A program made the translations under genes and the position numbers. 64,000 nt of DNA from NCBI GenBank assembly GCA_038851035.1, contig JAWCLH010000008.1, positions 1 through 64,000 of the forward strand, written 5' to 3'. The notes under the pieces are model-generated. The model was given only the letters and a program-made list of their open reading frames with translations, was not told the DNA's origin and made no database searches. Shown one piece after another: positions 1,636 through 14,454 of this stretch (the first letter of the stretch is position 1; the number at the start of each line of letters is the position of its first letter). This DNA comes from Thermoplasmata archaeon (lineage in GTDB: Archaea; Thermoplasmatota; DTKX01; VGTL01).

Positions 1636-4600
1636 TTAGCCGGTCGCCTCGAACCCCACCGCCCCCAACTCGACCATCAGCGTCGTGTTGTACATGTCCC
1701 AGGCCCTGACGTGCTGGAGCAGCGAGGTCGCGGGCCTCATCGCGGTCAGCGTGTAGTCGAGCTTCACCGGCCTCTCTCTCTCGACGCCGTCCAGGTAGAC
1801 CAGCGCCCTGTCCGCTCTCCTGAACTCATAGAAGCTTATTCTCCCTTCAGAGAGCAGCTCGCGGAAGTCGCTCTCGTCGAGCACGAAGCCCGTTGGCGCC
1901 CTGAGCTCGACCAGCACCATCCTGAGCATCCCGGCGGGGCCCCTGTATACGAGCTCCGCCTCCGCGACCACCACCTCGCCCAATGAGACCGTTGTGTTGT
2001 CGTAGCTGAGGCTCAGCTCCAGCTCCGGCGGCGGTAGGGGCATCGGCGCCGCCCACTCTATGTTCTGCTTCGTGTAGATGTGGTAGAACACACCTCCCTC
2101 GCCCGAGCTGCGGAGGCTGATGCTGACCTCCCTCGCCGCCACATTTCCCTCGCTGCTAAGGAACCAGGGCCTCAGGTCCATCATGTACGTCATGTCTTTG
2201 TTTTCATCATTGAAGCTTGCGCTCCCGACCAGCGTCCCGTTGGCCCTGACCTCGACCGTCATTGACTTCAAGGGCGTTATCTCGTCCAAGCTGTTCAGGG
2301 CTGTGAAGGCGACCGCGGTGTTGTGGGTTGAGCCCCAGTAGCCGCCAGCGCTCCTCTGGAGAACCAGGTACTTTGCCCCGGCCCTAACCAGCTCCGGCGA
2401 GCTCCCGGCCCTCGCGAGGGCCATCACCGCGTACCCCGTGGTCTCGACCGTGTTGTCGCTGCACCAGTACCAGCCCGGCTCCTTTTCCGCGTACTCCCAG
2501 TACCTCGCCCCCGAGGCCCCCTCCTTCACGGACGCGGCGAGCTTCTGGACGAGCGAGCTCCTGACGCTCCGGCTGCCCTCAGCCATCTCGAGCGCGTCGA
2601 GGCAAAGAGCGATGGTGAAGGACTCCGAGGCGCTCCCTATGTTCGCTTCGATGTATCTCACCGCTCTCTGGAGGGCGTCGCTCGAGCCGCTCAGGCCAGA
2701 GTAGGCCAGCGCGCGGGCGATGTAGGCGGTCGAGGCCAGCTTCTGGCTCTTCAGAGCGGAGTTCAGGGACCAGTGGCCGACGTCGGGTATCTCCCAGTGG
2801 CCGTCGGCGCCCTGCGCGGAGAGCAGGTAGGTCTGCAGGTCCGGGATTATGGAGGCATCGGCCAGGAAGCCGTTGTCCTGAAGGTCTTTGTACGCCTGCA
2901 GGGCCCAGGCGGTCAGCCATATATCGGGCGCCTCGCCCTGGTGCCACACGATCGCCCTTCCGTGCCCTCCCGTGTTCGAGCTCAGGTACTGGGCCTCGTG
3001 CTGGATGCCCATGTTGATAATGTCCCGGTAGCGCGTGACATTGGCCGGGTCGGGCCGGCCCTTCATGTAGTTCTCGTAGGCCACGATGTCCACCGAGAGG
3101 CGGGAGGTTGACTGCTCCCCGCAGCCCGAGACGATCTCGATGAACTGCTCCGCGCCGTCAAGGATGACCGACTCGACCCCGGCCTGTAATTTAACATAGG
3201 CCACCTCGCTTCCCGCGATTCTCCTCGGGTCGAGAGAGAAGGTCAAACGGGCGGTGTCGTCGTTCTCGAGAATTCCGTTCCTGATGTCCTCCACGAGCCT
3301 CCCGTCGGGCTCGACCGCGAGCTCCCTCACGACGATGTCCTGACGTCCGTCGGTGGTTCCGGTCACCCTGAGCCCGTGGACTCCGACCCTGAGCGCCTGG
3401 ATTGTGAAGGCGACCGAGGAGACGGAGTTCGCCCCCACGACCACCGTGGAGGTGGGGGAGCTGACCATCCTGTACCAGTCCGAGGGCGAGAGCTCGACGA
3501 GCACCGTTCTCTCCTTGGACTCGTAGTTGAAAACCAGCACTCTGAATGTGAACCTGTCGTTCCTCACGATGGAGGCCGGGAGGTCGGGGTCGACGAAGAA
3601 GGGCTGGAAGACCACCAGGCTCCCGTTTCCCACGCCGACCCGGCCGTCCACCGTCGAGCCCAGCGCCTCGACGCGCCAGGTCGTGATCGAGTCAGGGGCG
3701 TGGAGGACAAGCCGGGCACTTCCGTCCTCGCCCGTGACAACCAGCGGGTTCCAGTACCAGAGCTCCGGGAACCAGGTCCGGACTGTGACCTCTCTACCCG
3801 GGCCGATGACGCCCCGGGGCTGGTACCCCATGCCCGCGCTCCCGTTGCCGGCCGCCGATGCTTCCCCCTTAGCGGGCTGCGGAGGCGCACCGCCGGAGCG
3901 CTCGGCCTGTCCTCGGTACATGTCGCCGTAGTAGCTCTCAGAGCCCGCTCTCGTGTAGCCGGTGAAGCTGAGGGGCTGGCTGGTGTCGGAGAAGGCCGCG
4001 GGACCATGCTGGGGGAAGAAGTAGAGCGCAGCGGGTACGGCTGCCGCAAGTATGAGAAGGGAGGCGAGTAGCGCCAGCGCGATTTTTCTGAACCTGATCC
4101 CGAGCTGGATGACGCCGAAGTAGCCAGCGACACCGAGTGCTGCAACGCCGAGGAGCACGCCCCTCGACACCTCCGTGTCGCCCCCTGAGACTGCACTGCC
4201 GGCGGATCTCACTTCCGATGAATAGGTGAGGATACCTGCGTCCGGGCGGTAGTCGCTGTAGAAGTCGGAGCGGAAGAGAGGCACCACCATCTCCACGGCC
4301 CTCAATCCGCCCCACACATAGGAGTAGATGCTGTACTGCTCGAACCCGGGGTCCTTCTGAAGGTCCTGGCGAATTTCCGCGAAGGCGCTCTCCCCGCCCA
4401 TCGCGAGCAGGGCCTCGTCCACGATCGCGACTGCAAGGGCGGCGCTTGCGGGGTCCGTGCCGTTGAGCACATTGAACAGAAGCTCGACCTCCTCGCCGGG
4501 CCTGAGCTGCTGCTTCGATGGAGTGATGGTCACGTTGAGCTGGTTCGCTATCCCCACGCCGATCGCGGCGCGGTCGGTGGCGACGGTATATCTGCCCTCC

Positions 4601-6474
4601 AGCCTGTCTCCCGCCGGCCCTGACCCACCCCTGAAATAGTAGTAATAATAGTAGTCTTCGTATAAGCCGTAGTAATAGCTCTCGTACGACATGACAGAGA
4701 GCTTCCGCGCCTCAATTTCAATTGAGGGGACCATTTCCTCGGTCACCCTGAACGAGAGGTCACCCTTCCCCCCGACGAGCGCCACGCTCTTCTCAATGAC
4801 AGGCTCTCCTTCGACGAGAACACTGACGAAAGCCAGTCCGGCGACGCCGTAGAGGTCGTCCTGGGGGTCCGCGTAGACTGTGACGCGGGCGGTCTCTCCT
4901 GCATTGTAGAACCTCTTTTCAGGAACGACCTTGACTGCCGAGATGTCCCAGAAGGAGTAGCTGGTGGTCTCTGCTGCTGAGGGGTCGCCTGTCCAGACCT
5001 TTAGCTCCAGAGTTTGCTCTTTGTTATAAATAAAGGTCACGCGCGCAATGCCCCGCTGGTCCGTCACGACCTCGGGCAGGGGCCTCTTGGCGCTCCATTT
5101 CTTTAGGGAGGGGGCCACGTGTGCCCCCTGCACCGGTGCTCCAAGCGGGTCCCTGACGAGGACCTGCGCCGTGAAGGGCTGGCCTGGCGTGGCGGTCTCC
5201 AGAATCGCGGTGGCGTAAAAGGCCTCTGGGCTTAGGACGATTGTGGTGTTTTTGGCCTCAGTGTGTCCACCTGTGTCCGTGACCTCGGCCCTGATGTCGA
5301 GATTGTACTGCCTGTATTTGTCTATCCAGGAATAACCTGTATAAGATATAAATTCCCGTGCTGGGGGGAGGGTGAAGGCGCACCTCCCCTCCCTCACCTC
5401 GGCCGTGGCGTTGCCGATTATTCTGTCCACCGCTCCCGTCTCCGTCTCGTACCAGTACCACATATCGCTCGAGTAGAGGCGCGCGGTTATTCTTGCCGAA
5501 CCCTCCACCGGCTTTCCGAAGAAATAGCTCACGTATATCTCACCCGTCACAGGCCTGTCGAGGGTCAGAGGGCTGGAGACGTTCCTAAACTCTATCCCGA
5601 ACTTTGGCAGGACGTACCGCTCCACCGGCACACTTTTGACCGTAAGGGCGGAGGTTGTGCTGGCCGAGACCCTGTACTCGCCCAGAGGAAGGATATCCGA
5701 GAGGGGGTAATCTAGGAATGTGACACCAAATTTGTTCGGGACGAGCGTTGTCCTGAAGAGCTTGTTCCCGGAGGGGTCGGAGATTTCATAGGTCACATTT
5801 TCGGTGTTGGCCGCGCCGGGCCAGAAGGAGAGGGTGCGGAGGCGCATCGTCTGCCCGGGCTGGTAGCGGGGCTTGTCCATCGTCAGGTATAATTTCGGGG
5901 GAACCCGGTCTTGAACGGAGGGCCTCTCACCTCCCTCCGGCGCCTTCGATGCGAAGGCGCCCGGGTCGGCCGAGAAGGCACCCGAGTAGGATGGTTGGTT
6001 GTAGACCTCAAGCCTCCTCTGAATCGTCTCCCTGCCCGCCACAACCGTGAGGAGGACCCTTCCGTCATACTCCGGGGCCCTCTCCCGCGCCCCGGACCCA
6101 CCCGGCTGCTCCGGGACATAAAACCTCGCTTGGAGAACCCCAGCGTTGTCTGTTTTTCCATTGAAAAGCTCGAAGGTACCGCTGGAATTCGTGAGGTAGA
6201 CCCTGACTTCCTGCCCTGGAAGGGGGTCGTTGTTCCTGTCAGCGGTGACCACAAGGAGCTCGTTCCCGCCGCCGCCGAAGAGGTAGGCGTCCGTAAAGAC
6301 AAAGGCCCCCGTCGAGTAGGCGCCCGGCCGGAGGGTCCCGGAGTGGAGCGCCAGGACGGCCCCTCCGAAAACCGCTCCGAAGACCAATAGCCCACCAATC
6401 AGCAGCGCTCTGCCGGACCGTGACACTCTTTCTCTATCCCCGCTCACACCCATTCCTCCGGTCTTGCTGGCCAA
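1636..6474 (-). CDS. Giant alpha-2-macroglobulin-like protein with internal transmembrane hairpin
   Basis: The product of about 1612 residues has the alpha-2-macroglobulin plan: an N-terminal signal anchor (about 22-43), beta-rich MG domains, the thioester motif GCGEQ (1117-1121), a helical terpenoid-cyclase-like domain (about 1110-1400) and a receptor-binding-like end. Family members trap proteases through a thioester that reacts after bait cleavage. Two features are unusual. Residues 773-793 and 798-820 are two strong hydrophobic helices in mid-protein, upstream of the thioester region. Residues 597-614 hold 11 tyrosines, six in a row. There is no lipobox; the N-terminal helix would anchor it on the outer face. 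The first start is TTG 6474; ATG 6453 is also possible, and a TATA-like element at about 6488-6500 favours the later start. Family call is firm; protease-trapping function is inferred. Confidence 0.88.
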   Translation of the reverse strand: MASKTGGMGVSGDRERVSRSGRALLIGGLLVFGAVFGGAVLALHSGTLRPGAYSTGAFVFTDAYLFGGGGNELLVVTADRNNDPLPGQEVRVYLTNSSGTFELFNGKTDNAGVLQARFYVPEQPGGSGARERAPEYDGRVLLTVVAGRETIQRRLEVYNQPSYSGAFSADPGAFASKAPEGGERPSVQDRVPPKLYLTMDKPRYQPGQTMRLRTLSFWPGAANTENVTYEISDPSGNKLFRTTLVPNKFGVTFLDYPLSDILPLGEYRVSASTTSALTVKSVPVERYVLPKFGIEFRNVSSPLTLDRPVTGEIYVSYFFGKPVEGSARITARLYSSDMWYWYETETGAVDRIIGNATAEVREGRCAFTLPPAREFISYTGYSWIDKYRQYNLDIRAEVTDTGGHTEAKNTTIVLSPEAFYATAILETATPGQPFTAQVLVRDPLGAPVQGAHVAPSLKKWSAKRPLPEVVTDQRGIARVTFIYNKEQTLELKVWTGDPSAAETTSYSFWDISAVKVVPEKRFYNAGETARVTVYADPQDDLYGVAGLAFVSVLVEGEPVIEKSVALVGGKGDLSFRVTEEMVPSIEIEARKLSVMSYESYYYGLYEDYYYYYYFRGGSGPAGDRLEGRYTVATDRAAIGVGIANQLNVTITPSKQQLRPGEEVELLFNVLNGTDPASAALAVAIVDEALLAMGGESAFAEIRQDLQKDPGFEQYSIYSYVWGGLRAVEMVVPLFRSDFYSDYRPDAGILTYSSEVRSAGSAVSGGDTEVSRGVLLGVAALGVAGYFGVIQLGIRFRKIALALLASLLILAAAVPAALYFFPQHGPAAFSDTSQPLSFTGYTRAGSESYYGDMYRGQAERSGGAPPQPAKGEASAAGNGSAGMGYQPRGVIGPGREVTVRTWFPELWYWNPLVVTGEDGSARLVLHAPDSITTWRVEALGSTVDGRVGVGNGSLVVFQPFFVDPDLPASIVRNDRFTFRVLVFNYESKERTVLVELSPSDWYRMVSSPTSTVVVGANSVSSVAFTIQALRVGVHGLRVTGTTDGRQDIVVRELAVEPDGRLVEDIRNGILENDDTARLTFSLDPRRIAGSEVAYVKLQAGVESVILDGAEQFIEIVSGCGEQSTSRLSVDIVAYENYMKGRPDPANVTRYRDIINMGIQHEAQYLSSNTGGHGRAIVWHQGEAPDIWLTAWALQAYKDLQDNGFLADASIIPDLQTYLLSAQGADGHWEIPDVGHWSLNSALKSQKLASTAYIARALAYSGLSGSSDALQRAVRYIEANIGSASESFTIALCLDALEMAEGSRSVRSSLVQKLAASVKEGASGARYWEYAEKEPGWYWCSDNTVETTGYAVMALARAGSSPELVRAGAKYLVLQRSAGGYWGSTHNTAVAFTALNSLDEITPLKSMTVEVRANGTLVGSASFNDENKDMTYMMDLRPWFLSSEGNVAAREVSISLRSSGEGGVFYHIYTKQNIEWAAPMPLPPPELELSLSYDNTTVSLGEVVVAEAELVYRGPAGMLRMVLVELRAPTGFVLDESDFRELLSEGRISFYEFRRADRALVYLDGVERERPVKLDYTLTAMRPATSLLQHVRAWDMYNTTLMVELGAVGFEATG

Positions 6475-6569: not shown

Positions 6570-7838
6570 TTAAGATGGCTCCGACCTCGCGAGCAGCTCC
6601 TGCAGCATTCGGTCGACGTCCTCCATACCAGCGGTGTTCCCGTCCCAGTTCCTGAGCCTATCGCCATGCCTCTCCATTACCTTGTTAAGAATTGCCCTGA
6701 CGTCCCTTCTCAACTCGGGGGCCTCATGGCCTGTAAAGACAAGGGCGATATACAGAGGGGGTGCGTGTTCAATAAGAATTCTGTGCTTCCCTAGACTTAT
6801 CGTGCGGACGTTGTCCCGGCCCTCGGATTTGAAGGTGTGGAGGATGAACTGCTGGACCGCTGTCAGCATTCCGCCCGCGAGGTCCTCGTCCATGGCGGCT
6901 TCCGCCCTGCTGGCTGATGAGACCCTGATGCCGTTGTAGTCCATCAGGAAGACCTGCTCCAGCCTGCACTCCTTCCACTTCAGATCGGGGGCCAGCCATT
7001 CTACGAACCTTGTTCCCGAGTCATATATCGGCCTGAAGAACCAGGTCGAGATGACGACGATGAAAAATGTGAGGAGGCGTGCCTCACGCGTGACTGCTAA
7101 ATTGAACATTACTGTGAGGACTGAAAGAATGGAATAGACCAAAGCCCCTAGTAACACGGAGGTGAGGAAAATCACGAGCCCGCTCCTTAGTATTATTTCC
7201 GTGTTCAGTATGTGGTATCGCAGCATCGCGTAGATTGCTATTCCCGATGAGAATGCCATGAAGTAGCCCGAGAGCCAAGTCACGTCCTGGCTGAGCAGAG
7301 GGGCGATGATTATGGAAAGGATGAGCCAGATAAAAGGAATCAGGAGAAAGACCACCATCAGCCCCTTCTGCGCTCTCGAGAGGGGGTTCCTTTCGAGCCT
7401 GAGGGTGTGAATCGAAAGGAACAGCACCGCGCCCAGCGCCCCTATCCAGAATATATAGAAGAGCCTGAAGACTGCGGGCTGGGCTAGTAGTAAAATCTGA
7501 ATGATCGCGGGGATATAGAGCATCGATGGGGGCCATACCCTATCCACAAGCCACCTCGCCCTGCCAATATAAAGGAGAAGGAAGTGAATCTGAAGGGGGA
7601 AGAGGGTGACAATGAAGAGGGAATTCATTAGTGTCCAGAATAAGCGTGTCTGGGCGTCGGCGGAGAGAGTTATCATCGCCCAGGTCAGGGTTGTGACGCC
7701 CGCGAAATAAACGTAAATGGCAAGAATTCTCATTACGCGTGTGTGGGGAGTGAACAGGAGGAGGAAGTAGAGCATGAGGAAGGTCAAGAGGGCTCCGGTG
7801 ATATTAGGTAGCGCCAGAGGCGTGAGCTCGTAGGCCAA
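6570..7838 (-). CDS. Polytopic membrane protein with C-terminal roadblock-like sensor domain
   Basis: The 422-residue protein has eight or nine hydrophobic helices in residues 9-265, resembling the 7TM sensor modules found in front of histidine kinases. The remainder, about 290-400, is soluble: it opens with EQVFLMDYNGIRVSS, resembling the start of Roadblock/LC7 (MglB-like) domains, and ends in a charged helix. No histidine-kinase, GGDEF or phosphatase motif is present. This suggests a membrane receptor that passes a signal through a small-GTPase-type platform domain, but that is inference. The start is TTG at 7838; the first helix begins a few residues later, so a much later start is unlikely. 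It lies 95 bp upstream of the macroglobulin gene on the same strand. I do not recognise an exact family. Confidence 0.55.
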   Translation of the reverse strand: MAYELTPLALPNITGALLTFLMLYFLLLFTPHTRVMRILAIYVYFAGVTTLTWAMITLSADAQTRLFWTLMNSLFIVTLFPLQIHFLLLYIGRARWLVDRVWPPSMLYIPAIIQILLLAQPAVFRLFYIFWIGALGAVLFLSIHTLRLERNPLSRAQKGLMVVFLLIPFIWLILSIIIAPLLSQDVTWLSGYFMAFSSGIAIYAMLRYHILNTEIILRSGLVIFLTSVLLGALVYSILSVLTVMFNLAVTREARLLTFFIVVISTWFFRPIYDSGTRFVEWLAPDLKWKECRLEQVFLMDYNGIRVSSASRAEAAMDEDLAGGMLTAVQQFILHTFKSEGRDNVRTISLGKHRILIEHAPPLYIALVFTGHEAPELRRDVRAILNKVMERHGDRLRNWDGNTAGMEDVDRMLQELLARSEPS

Positions 7839-10220: not shown

Positions 10221-13200
10221 TCAGGGCCCGGCCGGCGGCGGGGAAGGCGGCGGGAGCTGTGGCCCTTGTGGAGCAGCCGGCGAAACCGGAGTTCCCTGAG
10301 CCGCCGGGAGAGCGGCGGGCGGGGGCGGGGCTGGCTCCGGAGGCGGAGGGGGCGGCGCGGGAGGGGCAGGGGGCTCCGCGGGCGGGGACGCCGGAGGGGG
10401 CGGTGGCGACGGAGGCGCGGCCGGTGGCGGGGCCGGCGGGGGTGGAGTAGCCGGCGGCGCAGGATATGGAGGCTGGGCCGCCGCTGGTTGCGCGGGCTGG
10501 GCTGGGGGCTTCCTCCTCATCATGGCTGCGCCCGCGCCCACAAGCACGAGAATCACCACGACCAGCACAATCAGCCAGAGTGGAATTCTTCCTCCGGCCG
10601 GGGCGGCCGCGGGCTTCTTCGGGACCGTGGCCGAGACCGGAGCTGTGGCGTTGCTGCCTCCGACGCTGTTGCGCGCTAGAACCGCATAGTAGTAGGTCTC
10701 GCCGGCTTTCACGTTTGCATCAATGTATGAGGTCACGTTCCCGAGCTCCGTCAGAAGCGTCATGTTGGCGGCGCTCGGGCCCCTGAGAACCACATAGGCG
10801 GTTATCGGACTGCCACCGTCCCTCGAGGGTGCGCTCCAGCTCAGGGTGATTCTGTCCTTTGAGGCGACGGCCCGGAGGTTCTCCGGAGTGTCTGGCGCGG
10901 TCGCAATCAGCTCTCCCTCGATTATCACGGTCGAGTTCATCAGGTTGAGCCAATTGCTCGGCCTGATGACCATCGTCTGGTAGGGGCCGATGGTTATGCC
11001 CTTGCGCGTCACATTTGGCAGGCCGGTCGGTCTGTAGCTCGAGTTCCAGGTCTCCTCCATTATCACATTCCCCTGGAACTCGACGTCGAAGCTGAAGCTG
11101 TGCGGGCCGTTGTTGAAGAAGACGAGCGAGTTCAGGTCCGGGGTTGTGTTGATGACCGCCTCAGAGTCGCTGAAGAGGTCTGCGTTCTGTATCTTATAGA
11201 CCCTCTCGCGAGGTCTGCGCTGCTCCGTCCCCATTTTTTTAACGAGCGTGGCGTTGTAGACCTTCTCGCTGTCCGTGGTTTTGTAGGAGAGGCGGCTCTG
11301 GAGCGGGTTGTCGCCATCGTAGCTCAGTCTGAGTGTGTCTCTGGTCCCGTTTTTAACGCCCGCTCCCTCCAGAGCGAAGCTCGAGTTCCCGTCCACGAGC
11401 TGTGCCCAATTGTAGGAGCCGTCACCGATGCCCTTGACGTGGGTGGTGTAGTTGCCCTGCGGGAGGTAGTAGCCCATTCCGCCGTACTCCCTCCCCTCCG
11501 AAAGAACAATGGGCGTGGCGTTGGGAATTCCTCCGGTCCACGTCCCGTTCTCCTCAATCGCGAGCCTGCGGCCCTCGCTGTCCTCGATGGTGGTTGTAGC
11601 GGAGCCGAATATCCAGTCCATTATGCCATCGACGGAGAGGGGCAGGGAGCGGTCGTCGTTGACCTTCCTGAAAGGTATGAAGACCATGCCCTGCGTACCG
11701 CCCCACCTGTCCCCGCCCGCCATGTAGAACTCCCAGGACCAGTAGGTGCCGGACTTGTTTATCTCGATATAGGGCGGGTAGTTGTCCGGGAAGCCCCAGT
11801 TCAGGACGGCGTCCACCGCCGTTTCTGGTTTGGAGAAGGCGGGCCTGTTGGAGTCGTAGACATAGATTCGCGTGTGCGTGGAGTCGACGTCCTCGACAAG
11901 GTATGGCACCATCGCGTGCCCTGAGGTGCCGTCCACTATGGACACGATGCCGTAGGTCCCGTCGGCTATCGAGTTCCTGATCATGTCGACGCACATCTTC
12001 ATCCCATCTGGCCCCCAGTTGCCGATGTGGTTCTCGATTATCCAGGCGAGCTGGGCGGAGGATATCTGGGAGCCGTGCATGAAGTCTATCCTCCGCTCCA
12101 CCTCGCCGCCGAGTGTTAGATTCGGGGTGTGGTAGACCCCCGGCTGGAGGTCGGTGGTGCGCACCACGCCGTTCTTGATTTGAAGCGCCGTGGCGCTGTA
12201 GCCGTAGCAGCGGCCGTTGCGCGCCAGGTACCAGTAGCCGACGCCGTAGACGATGGCTGCGAACGGGTCGGGGGCAATCGGCTGCTCGACCTCATAGCCC
12301 AGGCACTCCCAGCCGTCCCACGGGGTCCAGTAGGGGATGCCGATGCAGACCCAGATGTTGATGTAGACTTCGTCGGAGCCAAATGTGTCCTTGTAGTTGC
12401 CATCCTCCCAGAAGGCCCATGGGTAGGAGAGCTCGCCTTTGCCACTGTTGGGGAAGGAGAAGGCCCACTCGTAGCAGAACTCCGGAACAGGGTAGATATT
12501 GATGGCGCGCGCGTGGGTGTCCTCGCCGGCGTTCGTCTTTACCTTTACATGACCGGGTCTGTGAGGAATTCCCGCGTGGAGGGTGAAGTTGAAGGAGTGG
12601 TCCGGGTCGAGCTCCGTCGGCGTCGGTGCCGTCAGCACCGTGGCGGCCAGAACGTCATTGATGAAGACCTGCGCGCCCATCAGGTTAGACCCCTCGATGT
12701 GTATCTTCATTCCCGCCATCGCTCGGGGCGGGCTGAAGTTTGTGATTGTGGGTGGGAGTGGCGTGACCTTGATGGTGACCCGAGAGATGTTGTCGAAGGA
12801 CGGTGTCGTGGCCTCCTTGCCGTCCCAGACCTCGAGCTCGAATATGAAGTGGACGGTGTAGTCCCTTATGTTGGGTGTGAAGTAGGGTCTGGCTGTGTGG
12901 CTGTTGTGAAGAGTCACCGGGTACTCTTCCGGCTCCGTCTGCCTCCAAGTGTAGAACAGCGCGTCTCCGTCGGGGTCCCTGCTCCGGGAACCATCGAGGT
13001 GGACGGTGGTCCCCTCCACCACATCCTGATTGGGCCCGGCGTTGGCCACGGGGGCTCTGTTGAACGGTGTCTCCGTGTAAATGCAGAAGGGGTTGTTGCT
13101 CTGCGAGGACTTCTTCGTGTTGTCTGTTTTTATCAGCTCAACCTTGATTTTGGCCTGCTCCGTGTCTATGAGAGGGGCGGTCCAGGTTATTGAAGAGGCA

Positions 13201-14411
13201 GTGCTGGAGGCATTGAGAATGTTACTCCAGCTCGTGCCGTTGTTCTCGGAGAGGTATATCTTGAACTCCCTGACCTGGGAGCGGGGCCCGGTGGTGCTCC
13301 ACTTTATGGTGTACCTCTCCCCGCCCCCTATGATGAGGCCGCGCGGAACATAGGGGTTCGGGTCAATCAGTGAGACGGTCACGGTGTTCGGGTCCGATAT
13401 AATCGTGCAGGGGCCGTCGCTGATGTCGCTGGCGAAGACATAACCGTCCAGGTGGGAGTTCTCGAGCTTTATGAAGACGTTTTCCGAATTGATTGAGGTG
13501 GGAACGTTCCAGGTGTGGCTGAAGTCGTTATCGGTGGACGCAATCATGGTCCAGCTCGAGCCTCCGTTGATAGAGTAGTAGATGTTGATTCCGTATATAA
13601 CGTCGTGTGGGTCGTTCACGGTCACCCACGTGATCTCGAAGGGCTGGCCGCCGACCAGAACCTCCCCGCCGTTAGGCTTCTTCAGGATTATGATGGGGGA
13701 TTTGAGTGTTATTTCAGAGGTCGTGTTCTCGGCGAGCACGGTGGCGTGGCTCGAGAGGGCCTGGATTTTGTACTGGAGGGTCGCCTCCTCGTAGAAGGGG
13801 GGGGCGAGCCACACGCCCCCCTGCGTGGGCGGCATGCTGTTATAGAACCCGCCCATGTCTTGCCATGAGCCCCAGCTCCCGTTGTCCTTCACCCTCCACT
13901 GGAGCTTGAGCGCAGCCACATGGTCATCAGGGTCGTACATGTCCCATCTGAGTCTGAAATAGCTCCCCCCGCTCACCTCCGACGGCACCTCCGTGAACCG
14001 CAGGACGAGCTTGGGAATGATTGTGAAGTTCGCGTCGCTGACGTCCCTGGCCCAGACTTCGTACGGAGGCAGCATGCTGGAGACAAGGGTCGCCCGAATT
14101 CTTGCGGCGGTGGTGTTCAGGCTGAGCGGAATCGTCCAGTTGTAGCTCCCTTTGCTCGTCATGATGGTGGCTATGGAATATGGATAGGACTCGCCACCGT
14201 CCGTGGAGAGCTCTAGCTTAACGCCCCCCTCGGGCGTGGACGCTATCCACGATATCCGGAACCTATCTCCACCGTATAACCTCTCCCCGCCGTTGGGGTC
14301 CTTTACCTCGATCGTCTGGGGCTTCGCCGCGGGCGCGAGCGGCTGCGCGAGGGGCAAAAGAAAGAGCAGGGCAGTCGCTAGCGCAATCCACCTGCACTTA
14401 TTATATTTCAT
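10221..14411 (-). CDS. Large surface protein: Ig-like, TIG, papain-like and FN3 domains, proline-rich tail
   Basis: The product of about 1396 residues starts with a signal peptide (about 8-29) and several Ig-like repeats carrying the pattern PNGGE followed by W-rich strands. Next come an IPT/TIG-like domain (opening PPTITNFSPPRAMAGM), a central domain of about 400 residues, an FN3 domain (about 1200-1290), one transmembrane helix (IPLWLIVLVVVILVLVGAGA) and a tail of about 110 residues made mainly of proline and alanine. The central domain has the order C735 in NGRCYGYS, H832 in SGHAMV and D853/N855 in YDSNRP, which fits a papain-like (C1/C39-type) catalytic triad. It is thus probably a cell-anchored exported protein with a cysteine-peptidase or transglutaminase-like core. 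ATG 14411 follows a TATA-like GATATATATAC. Peptidase activity is an inference. Confidence 0.7.
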   Translation of the reverse strand: MKYNKCRWIALATALLFLLPLAQPLAPAAKPQTIEVKDPNGGERLYGGDRFRISWIASTPEGGVKLELSTDGGESYPYSIATIMTSKGSYNWTIPLSLNTTAARIRATLVSSMLPPYEVWARDVSDANFTIIPKLVLRFTEVPSEVSGGSYFRLRWDMYDPDDHVAALKLQWRVKDNGSWGSWQDMGGFYNSMPPTQGGVWLAPPFYEEATLQYKIQALSSHATVLAENTTSEITLKSPIIILKKPNGGEVLVGGQPFEITWVTVNDPHDVIYGINIYYSINGGSSWTMIASTDNDFSHTWNVPTSINSENVFIKLENSHLDGYVFASDISDGPCTIISDPNTVTVSLIDPNPYVPRGLIIGGGERYTIKWSTTGPRSQVREFKIYLSENNGTSWSNILNASSTASSITWTAPLIDTEQAKIKVELIKTDNTKKSSQSNNPFCIYTETPFNRAPVANAGPNQDVVEGTTVHLDGSRSRDPDGDALFYTWRQTEPEEYPVTLHNSHTARPYFTPNIRDYTVHFIFELEVWDGKEATTPSFDNISRVTIKVTPLPPTITNFSPPRAMAGMKIHIEGSNLMGAQVFINDVLAATVLTAPTPTELDPDHSFNFTLHAGIPHRPGHVKVKTNAGEDTHARAINIYPVPEFCYEWAFSFPNSGKGELSYPWAFWEDGNYKDTFGSDEVYINIWVCIGIPYWTPWDGWECLGYEVEQPIAPDPFAAIVYGVGYWYLARNGRCYGYSATALQIKNGVVRTTDLQPGVYHTPNLTLGGEVERRIDFMHGSQISSAQLAWIIENHIGNWGPDGMKMCVDMIRNSIADGTYGIVSIVDGTSGHAMVPYLVEDVDSTHTRIYVYDSNRPAFSKPETAVDAVLNWGFPDNYPPYIEINKSGTYWSWEFYMAGGDRWGGTQGMVFIPFRKVNDDRSLPLSVDGIMDWIFGSATTTIEDSEGRRLAIEENGTWTGGIPNATPIVLSEGREYGGMGYYLPQGNYTTHVKGIGDGSYNWAQLVDGNSSFALEGAGVKNGTRDTLRLSYDGDNPLQSRLSYKTTDSEKVYNATLVKKMGTEQRRPRERVYKIQNADLFSDSEAVINTTPDLNSLVFFNNGPHSFSFDVEFQGNVIMEETWNSSYRPTGLPNVTRKGITIGPYQTMVIRPSNWLNLMNSTVIIEGELIATAPDTPENLRAVASKDRITLSWSAPSRDGGSPITAYVVLRGPSAANMTLLTELGNVTSYIDANVKAGETYYYAVLARNSVGGSNATAPVSATVPKKPAAAPAGGRIPLWLIVLVVVILVLVGAGAAMMRRKPPAQPAQPAAAQPPYPAPPATPPPPAPPPAAPPSPPPPPASPPAEPPAPPAPPPPPPEPAPPPPAALPAAQGTPVSPAAPQGPQLPPPSPPPAGP

Positions 14412-14454
14412 CAATCAACACCTTCCATTGATACCAATAGTCAGGAGGGTATAA

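Follow-up and report, generated by a model that had tools for sequence, protein, structure and literature searches.

A candidate cell-surface alpha-2-macroglobulin of animal type with a probable transmembrane hairpin in its bait insert in archaea of the Thermoplasmatota

Introduction

Animal alpha-2-macroglobulins (A2M) are secreted proteins with a soluble bait, while CD109, also a macroglobulin of animal type, is anchored by a C-terminal GPI. The LNK and the bait region together make up a single uninterrupted insert of the MG6 domain, and in complement proteins the anaphylatoxin domain replaces the bait (PMC9156758). The end of the bait plugs the channel between MG2 and MG3 and retracts upon cleavage, the roles of R732 and F735 having been tested by mutation, and the conformational switch of the family is supposed to have arisen in an early animal (PMC9352918). 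In E. coli, YfhM (ECAM) is a membrane-anchored thioester protease trap for which untethering of the bait was reported as the key to activation (PMC4498604). CxEQ macroglobulins have also been described in archaea, with signal peptides, varied domain architectures and, in some cases, neighbouring transcription regulators; the words hairpin, bait and Thermoplasm- are absent from the main text of that account (PMC8416519). A literature search, mostly of non-subscription papers, yielded no description of a transmembrane hairpin in any macroglobulin, and the accessible parts of PMC9793634, PMC13337447 and PMC12485934 held nothing bearing on archaeal macroglobulins of this kind. Here we describe a macroglobulin gene on a 64,000-nucleotide stretch of Thermoplasmata archaeon DNA (the whole stretch is called the window below) together with its relatives in the phylum.

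Domain architecture of the macroglobulin

The gene and its domains were located as follows.

1636..6474, minus strand: alpha-2-macroglobulin gene, a single open reading frame that starts at TTG and encodes 1612 aa
6352..6408, minus strand: N-terminal hydrophobic segment at residues 23-41 with a Kyte-Doolittle mean of 2.37, either a signal anchor or a signal peptide
4966..5895, minus strand: MG2-MG3-MG4, residues 194-503 (Pfam)
4399..4935, minus strand: A2M_BRD, i.e. MG5 and the first half of MG6, residues 514-692 (Pfam)
3490..3759, minus strand: A2M domain (MG7 region), residues 906-995 (Pfam)
2293..3162, minus strand: thioester domain (TED), residues 1105-1394 (Pfam, E 1e-24)
3112-3126, minus strand: GCGEQ thioester motif, residues 1117-1121, inside the TED
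1723..1923, minus strand: A2M_recep, the receptor-binding or C-terminal MG domain, residues 1518-1584 (Pfam)

The order of MG domains, A2M domain, TED and receptor-binding domain is that of the alpha-2-macroglobulin superfamily, with the Pfam matches above their cut-offs (within the first block, MG2 at 194-274, MG3 at 286-343 and MG4/Big_1 at ~430-503). The preliminary description of this DNA had named a macroglobulin bearing GCGEQ and a cyclase-like domain. The first part was confirmed by these domains and by the position of the motif, which is invariant in 9/9 aligned hairpin proteins (see below), as expected for the CxEQ superfamily, and the window protein presumably forms the thioester. 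A cyclase signal was also seen, but it amounted to a weak resemblance of the TED (E 0.085 for SQHop_cyclase_N and E 1e-5, far under the cut-off, for hopene cyclase). Neither an anaphylatoxin nor a C345C Pfam match appeared at E 0.1 in the 1612-aa protein, which sets it apart from the complement C3 type.

Relatives within the phylum

The phylum sample comprised 389 genomes, of which 17 contained PF00207, and profile A1, built from nine hairpin proteins, matched in 27 genomes at E 0.001, many weakly. A GCGEQ-type protein was found in 13 genomes, namely G000 (the source of the window), G005, G006, G020, G021, G027, G035, G075, G079, G230, G255, G292 and G355. Nine of the proteins were full-length (the window protein, L027-L033 and L035), and two partial ones, L036 (G035) and L070 (G027), still covered the insert discussed below. 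In G020 (C61/C62) and G075 (C41) the contigs begin at the TED, with an assembly break just 5' of the GCGEQ codons, so that the mid-gene part of the macroglobulin is missing in both; no further sequence of the hairpin region was obtained from the family of G020 (2/8 genomes) and the order of G006 (3/3). The closest named relative was L021, from the MAG of Euryarchaeota archaeon M_DeepCast_200m, with 52% identity over the best segment. A search of the genome contigs with the window protein as single query gave 2 loci. A viral origin was considered and rejected, viral contigs giving no relative. Matches turned up in 11 plasmid records, all of them distant and bacterial.

A conserved hydrophobic hairpin

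Two hydrophobic helices at 773-820 had been proposed in mid-chain. Hydropathy and conservation both bear this out, and the elements are as follows.

4102..4158, minus strand: first predicted transmembrane helix of the hairpin, at residues 773-791 (hydropathy, shallow models)
4084..4101, minus strand: hairpin loop GIRFRK, residues 792-797, predicted cytoplasmic (basic in 10/11 proteins)
4027..4083, minus strand: second predicted transmembrane helix of the hairpin, at residues 798-816 (hydropathy, shallow models)

The mean Kyte-Doolittle values over 19 residues were 2.02 for 773-791 and 2.53 for 798-816, while the highest 19-residue mean elsewhere in the chain, apart from the 23-41 segment, was 1.59. 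When the protein sequence was shuffled, the maximum hydropathy peak had a median of 1.87 and a 99th percentile of 2.62; a single peak can therefore be reached by composition alone, and the relatives were used to make the case. The pair as a whole exceeds chance because it is conserved in all eleven GCGEQ-type proteins covering the insert (the window protein being one of the 11), which represent nine families within the phylum; mean hydropathy spanned 1.81-2.79 in helix 1 and 1.87-2.53 in helix 2. The net charge from mid-helix to mid-helix was +2 to +4 in 10/11, with L029 at 0; over the 30 residues past helix 2 it was neutral or negative in 11/11. An N-terminal hydrophobic segment was present in 10/10 proteins with a covered N-terminus, and no C-terminal hydrophobic peak was seen in the 9 full-length hairpin proteins.

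Among the nine aligned proteins, the helices were nearly constant in length and kept their hydrophobicity, while their mean pairwise identity was 18% and 21%, compared to 52% for the A2M domain and 46% for the TED. Fixed length and hydrophobicity combined with a drifting sequence fit a topological element or membrane anchor rather than a binding surface. Two AlphaFold models had low mean pLDDT, 37.3 and 40.7, because their alignments had two rows. They drew two free helices at low confidence, 767-794 and ~796-822 (798-819 in the first model), outside any soluble domain, with block means of the hairpin helices of ~48-65 pLDDT and disorder after them, so the structure prediction that had been suggested as a check agreed with the proposal within the limits of such alignments. 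Overall, the hairpin is very probably transmembrane.

Bait insert and trigger motifs

The nine-protein profile matched human A2M (6tav) at E 2e-118 with 399.7 bits, the top score among solved structures, and was aligned up to residue 609 and then again from 715. The alignments of A2ML1 and CD109 broke alike, and C3 and TEP1 were also matched. Since the gap at 609-715 of human A2M holds the hairpin, the hairpin lies in the bait/anaphylatoxin insert of MG6. The helices had been said to interrupt the chain upstream of the thioester half; they do so in mid-chain, but they do not simply lie between two halves, as they belong to the bait insert and sit beside the trigger segment. The following elements were assigned in and around the insert.

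4309..4398, minus strand: segment following MG6a, residues 693-722, probably the LNK helix (near-constant length of 24-31, 30% mean identity)
3781..4026, minus strand: presumed bait segment rich in Gly, Ser and Pro, residues 817-898 (composition)
3766..3780, minus strand: plug RTWFP, residues 899-903, counterpart of A2M R732-P736 (profile alignment)
5605..5616, minus strand: channel motif YVLP, residues 287-290, counterpart of A2ML1 Tyr214-Pro217

The LNK segment was in part helical in a shallow AlphaFold model. Past helix 2, ten sequences showed a disordered-looking stretch of 58-120 residues, 53-68% of which are G, S, P, N, D, E, Q or T, and this stretch is likely the bait. In L028 (4972-9843, G079) the presumed bait carries an acidic stretch rich in Asp and Asn, which resembles calcium-binding repeats of the thrombospondin type. 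The presumed bait is followed in the hairpin proteins by the motif R.(Y/F/W)FPE(T/L)W, in which R899 and F902 of the window protein align with A2M R732 and F735. Tyr214-Pro217 of A2ML1 is a conserved motif of the MG2-MG3 channel (PMC9156758). The plug (R..FP) and the channel motif (YVLP) were both present in 9/9 hairpin proteins, as in an animal-type trigger. A soluble, unanchored bait in the MG6 insert, the other mark of the animal type, was not found, the hydrophobic hairpin occupying that place in 11/11.

Paralogues, bacterial relatives and clade

Fifteen macroglobulins served as controls, six archaeal paralogues and nine bacterial proteins, and the hairpin was found in none of them (0/6 and 0/9). 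The search for the helix pair among homologues, proposed beforehand, thus returned it from every homologue of the same clade that covers the region, and only paralogues and bacterial relatives lacked it. The arrangement had also been called unfamiliar from classical family members, in agreement with these controls and with the literature. The archaeal paralogues were frames of 1915-2541 aa and one partial frame of 1099 aa with GCTEQ or a similar motif; three of them share a genome with a hairpin protein (G000, G005, G079), and the place of the bait was a soluble stretch that by eye appeared rich in Gly, Gln, Ser or Asp. Eight bacterial proteins taken from named records, including E. coli YfhM, had no hydrophobic peak past residue 152. 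Single peaks of 1.71-1.74 in L022 (Stahlbacteria), L037 and L042 were considered and rejected as MG6 strands rather than hairpins. The genome of the window encodes a second macroglobulin on contig C39 (L039, 5544-12956), with 2471 aa, GCNEQ, N- and C-terminal hydrophobic segments and no hairpin, and it is resembled by the paralogues in G005 and G079.

In a tree of 17 rows, computed from the C-terminal part with the hairpin excluded, the ten hairpin rows fell on one side of a 100/100 branch; the outgroup branch is long, the root was placed by midpoint only, and the row L034 was scored as hairpin via L070 from a different contig of the same genome. The hairpin proteins are one clade. The strict plug and YVLP motifs together were found in 0/15 controls, and a loose form of the plug occurred in 5/6 archaeal paralogues. 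The profile scored 43.9 bits for YfhM, at most 245 for the eight bacterial proteins and 254-388 for the archaeal paralogues, compared to 399.7 for human A2M, so that a close relation to the ECAM type does not hold. The loose plugs and the paralogue at 388 bits suggest that the hairpin clade does not have this trigger logic entirely to itself. Layout, trigger motifs and similarity together make the clade one of animal type.

Compared to the described systems, the archaeal proteins thus share with human A2M and A2ML1 the order of MG2-MG4, BRD, A2M, TED and RBD, the GCGEQ motif, the R..FP plug and YVLP, but differ in the probable transmembrane hairpin of the bait insert and in the N-terminal hydrophobic segment. 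CD109 is likewise among the top-scoring solved relatives, whereas the archaeal proteins carry one anchor at the N-terminus and another within the bait insert instead of a C-terminal one. With complement C3, C4 and C5 they have in common a helical module at the bait position of the MG6 insert, which in complement is a soluble anaphylatoxin domain that is cut off and here a membrane hairpin. E. coli YfhM is anchored at the N-terminus only and has neither hairpin nor plug and YVLP, whereas trapping, reported for YfhM, is presumed for the archaeal protein.

Proposed mechanism

Our main reading, to which we assign a probability of roughly 60% from the sequence comparisons, is that the protein is a cell-surface alpha-2-macroglobulin of animal type whose bait is pinned in the membrane. 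The N-terminal part would be extracellular and anchored by its N-terminal helix. The chain would leave MG6 through the LNK helix, cross the membrane as a two-helix hairpin with the short basic loop in the cytoplasm, and re-emerge as the flexible bait of 58-120 residues, the R..FP plug of which would thread the MG2-MG3 channel. A foreign protease attacking the envelope would cleave the bait between helix 2 and the plug, upon which the plug would retract, the channel collapse and the thioester domain swing out to form a covalent bond with the protease. Because the N-terminal half would be held by up to three helices (N-terminal and hairpin), the captured protease would stay at the surface. Fixing the bait in the membrane would take to its extreme the bait tether reported for E. 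coli. That the helices span the membrane and that the window protein traps proteases is what we infer from these features, and a role in shielding the cell against proteases, as suggested in the preliminary description, is plausible by analogy.

If so, the hairpin is a testable means of retaining the sprung trap on the cell, and the protein is a concrete candidate for extracellular defence of archaea against proteases. A membrane anchor in the place where complement has its anaphylatoxin domain is also a natural experiment on the cargo of the bait insert. Given trigger motifs of animal type in archaea and scores closer to human A2M than those of all eight bacterial proteins, the conformational switch may be older than an early animal or may have moved between domains.

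Alternative explanations

An alternative explanation, which we regard as unlikely, is that the protein is a protease sensor, in which cleavage of the bait would be relayed via the hairpin to a membrane-embedded winged-helix (wHTH) regulator, or to the 7TM neighbour in the window, and the cell would respond. A gene for a wHTH part followed by ~10 membrane spans directly follows the macroglobulin gene on its strand at 5/10 loci (L027, L030, L031, L034 and L035), its open frame beginning 4-102 bases past the end of the macroglobulin frame. The full-length profile of this wHTH-TM protein also matched in G000, G005 and G079, where the gene lies away from the macroglobulin, and in ten comparison genomes without a GCGEQ macroglobulin it found at most the wHTH part, which by itself is common in these genomes. 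A profile of the TM half matched in 10/389 genomes. Eight of these matches had E 3e-73 or lower and are clear, and the remaining two are marginal at E 3e-4 and 6e-4; all eight clear ones fell within the 13 macroglobulin genomes, and the other five of the 13 had no match to this profile. As the eight are all rows of the profile, their scores are inflated; they still reached E 1.8e-9 to 4e-25 when left out one at a time, so divergent members would be detected. Hypergeometric probabilities of co-occurrence were 1e-13, and 6e-6 for the three non-adjacent cases, values that ignore relatedness and selection and are overstated, since five of the eight were chosen for adjacency and G000 and G005 belong to one family. 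The low sequence conservation of the hairpin helices also speaks against a specific helix-helix contact. The co-occurrence nevertheless hints at a role beyond trapping, and a sensing role is possible.

6570..7838, minus strand: upstream neighbour, encoding a 7TM protein (HisKA_7TM-like) that ends in a soluble domain, and perhaps sharing an operon with the macroglobulin

In the sister genome G005, an orthologue of this protein with 50% identity is likewise encoded immediately upstream of the macroglobulin, and in G021 the macroglobulin contig also carries the best match to the 7TM protein. This neighbourhood is at most suggestive of signalling.

We consider it equally improbable that the protein is a surface protein like complement or CD109, which would adhere, tag or bind by way of its thioester or its surface instead of trapping proteases, with the hairpin as a mere anchor. 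CD109 and C3 are indeed among the closest solved relatives, and roles in conflict or recognition have been proposed for archaeal A2M homologues (PMC8416519). However, the hairpin is followed in every complete relative by the long flexible stretch and the plug, which suggests a cleavable bait. At the TED position that we aligned by eye and take to be the acceptor-controlling residue, Asn was found as in A2M in 7/9 hairpin proteins, with His in one only and Pro in one; we assume that Asn there goes with amine targets.

Still less likely is a membrane alarm, in which cleaving the pinned bait would both trap the protease and switch the co-occurring membrane wHTH regulator through the hairpin. Finally, a buried or amphipathic helix pair within a soluble domain, which would match the position of the helical anaphylatoxin domain and the shuffle range of a single hydrophobic peak, is very improbable given the two 19-residue hydrophobic cores and the neutral or acidic charge past helix 2 in 11/11 proteins, the basic loop in 10/11, and the two long free helices of the shallow models.

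Tyrosine tract and neighbouring genes

The protein also contains a lineage-specific loop, located as follows.

4600..4704, minus strand: lineage-specific loop insertion, residues 591-625 (alignment of relatives)
4633-4686, minus strand: tyrosine tract, residues 597-614

The tract was confirmed as first described: tyrosine fills 11 of its 18 positions, with TAC and TAT codons intermixed, and it belongs to the window protein only. The insertion lies near the last MG5 strands in the alignment to A2M and is common to the window and its sister genome only, with 35 residues in the window protein and 26, without a tyrosine run, in the nearest relative; the other 7/9 aligned proteins have 2 residues at the site. 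The tract looks incidental and outside the conserved design.

The C-terminal domain of the 7TM protein (~290-415) had 12 matches in the genome of the window and up to 25 in a relative, which suggests an expanded family of signalling domains. A beta-propeller protein (PF09826) is encoded beside the macroglobulin in L028 and, in L074, beside the wHTH-TM gene; it was rejected as a partner because it occurs in 202/389 genomes and hence is not specific. In the genome of the window, a Ras-family small GTPase (L073 8050-8673, G000:C5; PF00071, E 7e-38) adjoins the wHTH-TM gene, and in G021 the gene adjoining the macroglobulin (L030 292-3126) contains an intein with LAGLIDADG domains. The window itself also encodes, at 10221-14414, a surface protein of 1397 aa with PKD and fn3 domains, in which a hydrophobic segment is followed by a long C-terminal tail rich in proline and alanine.
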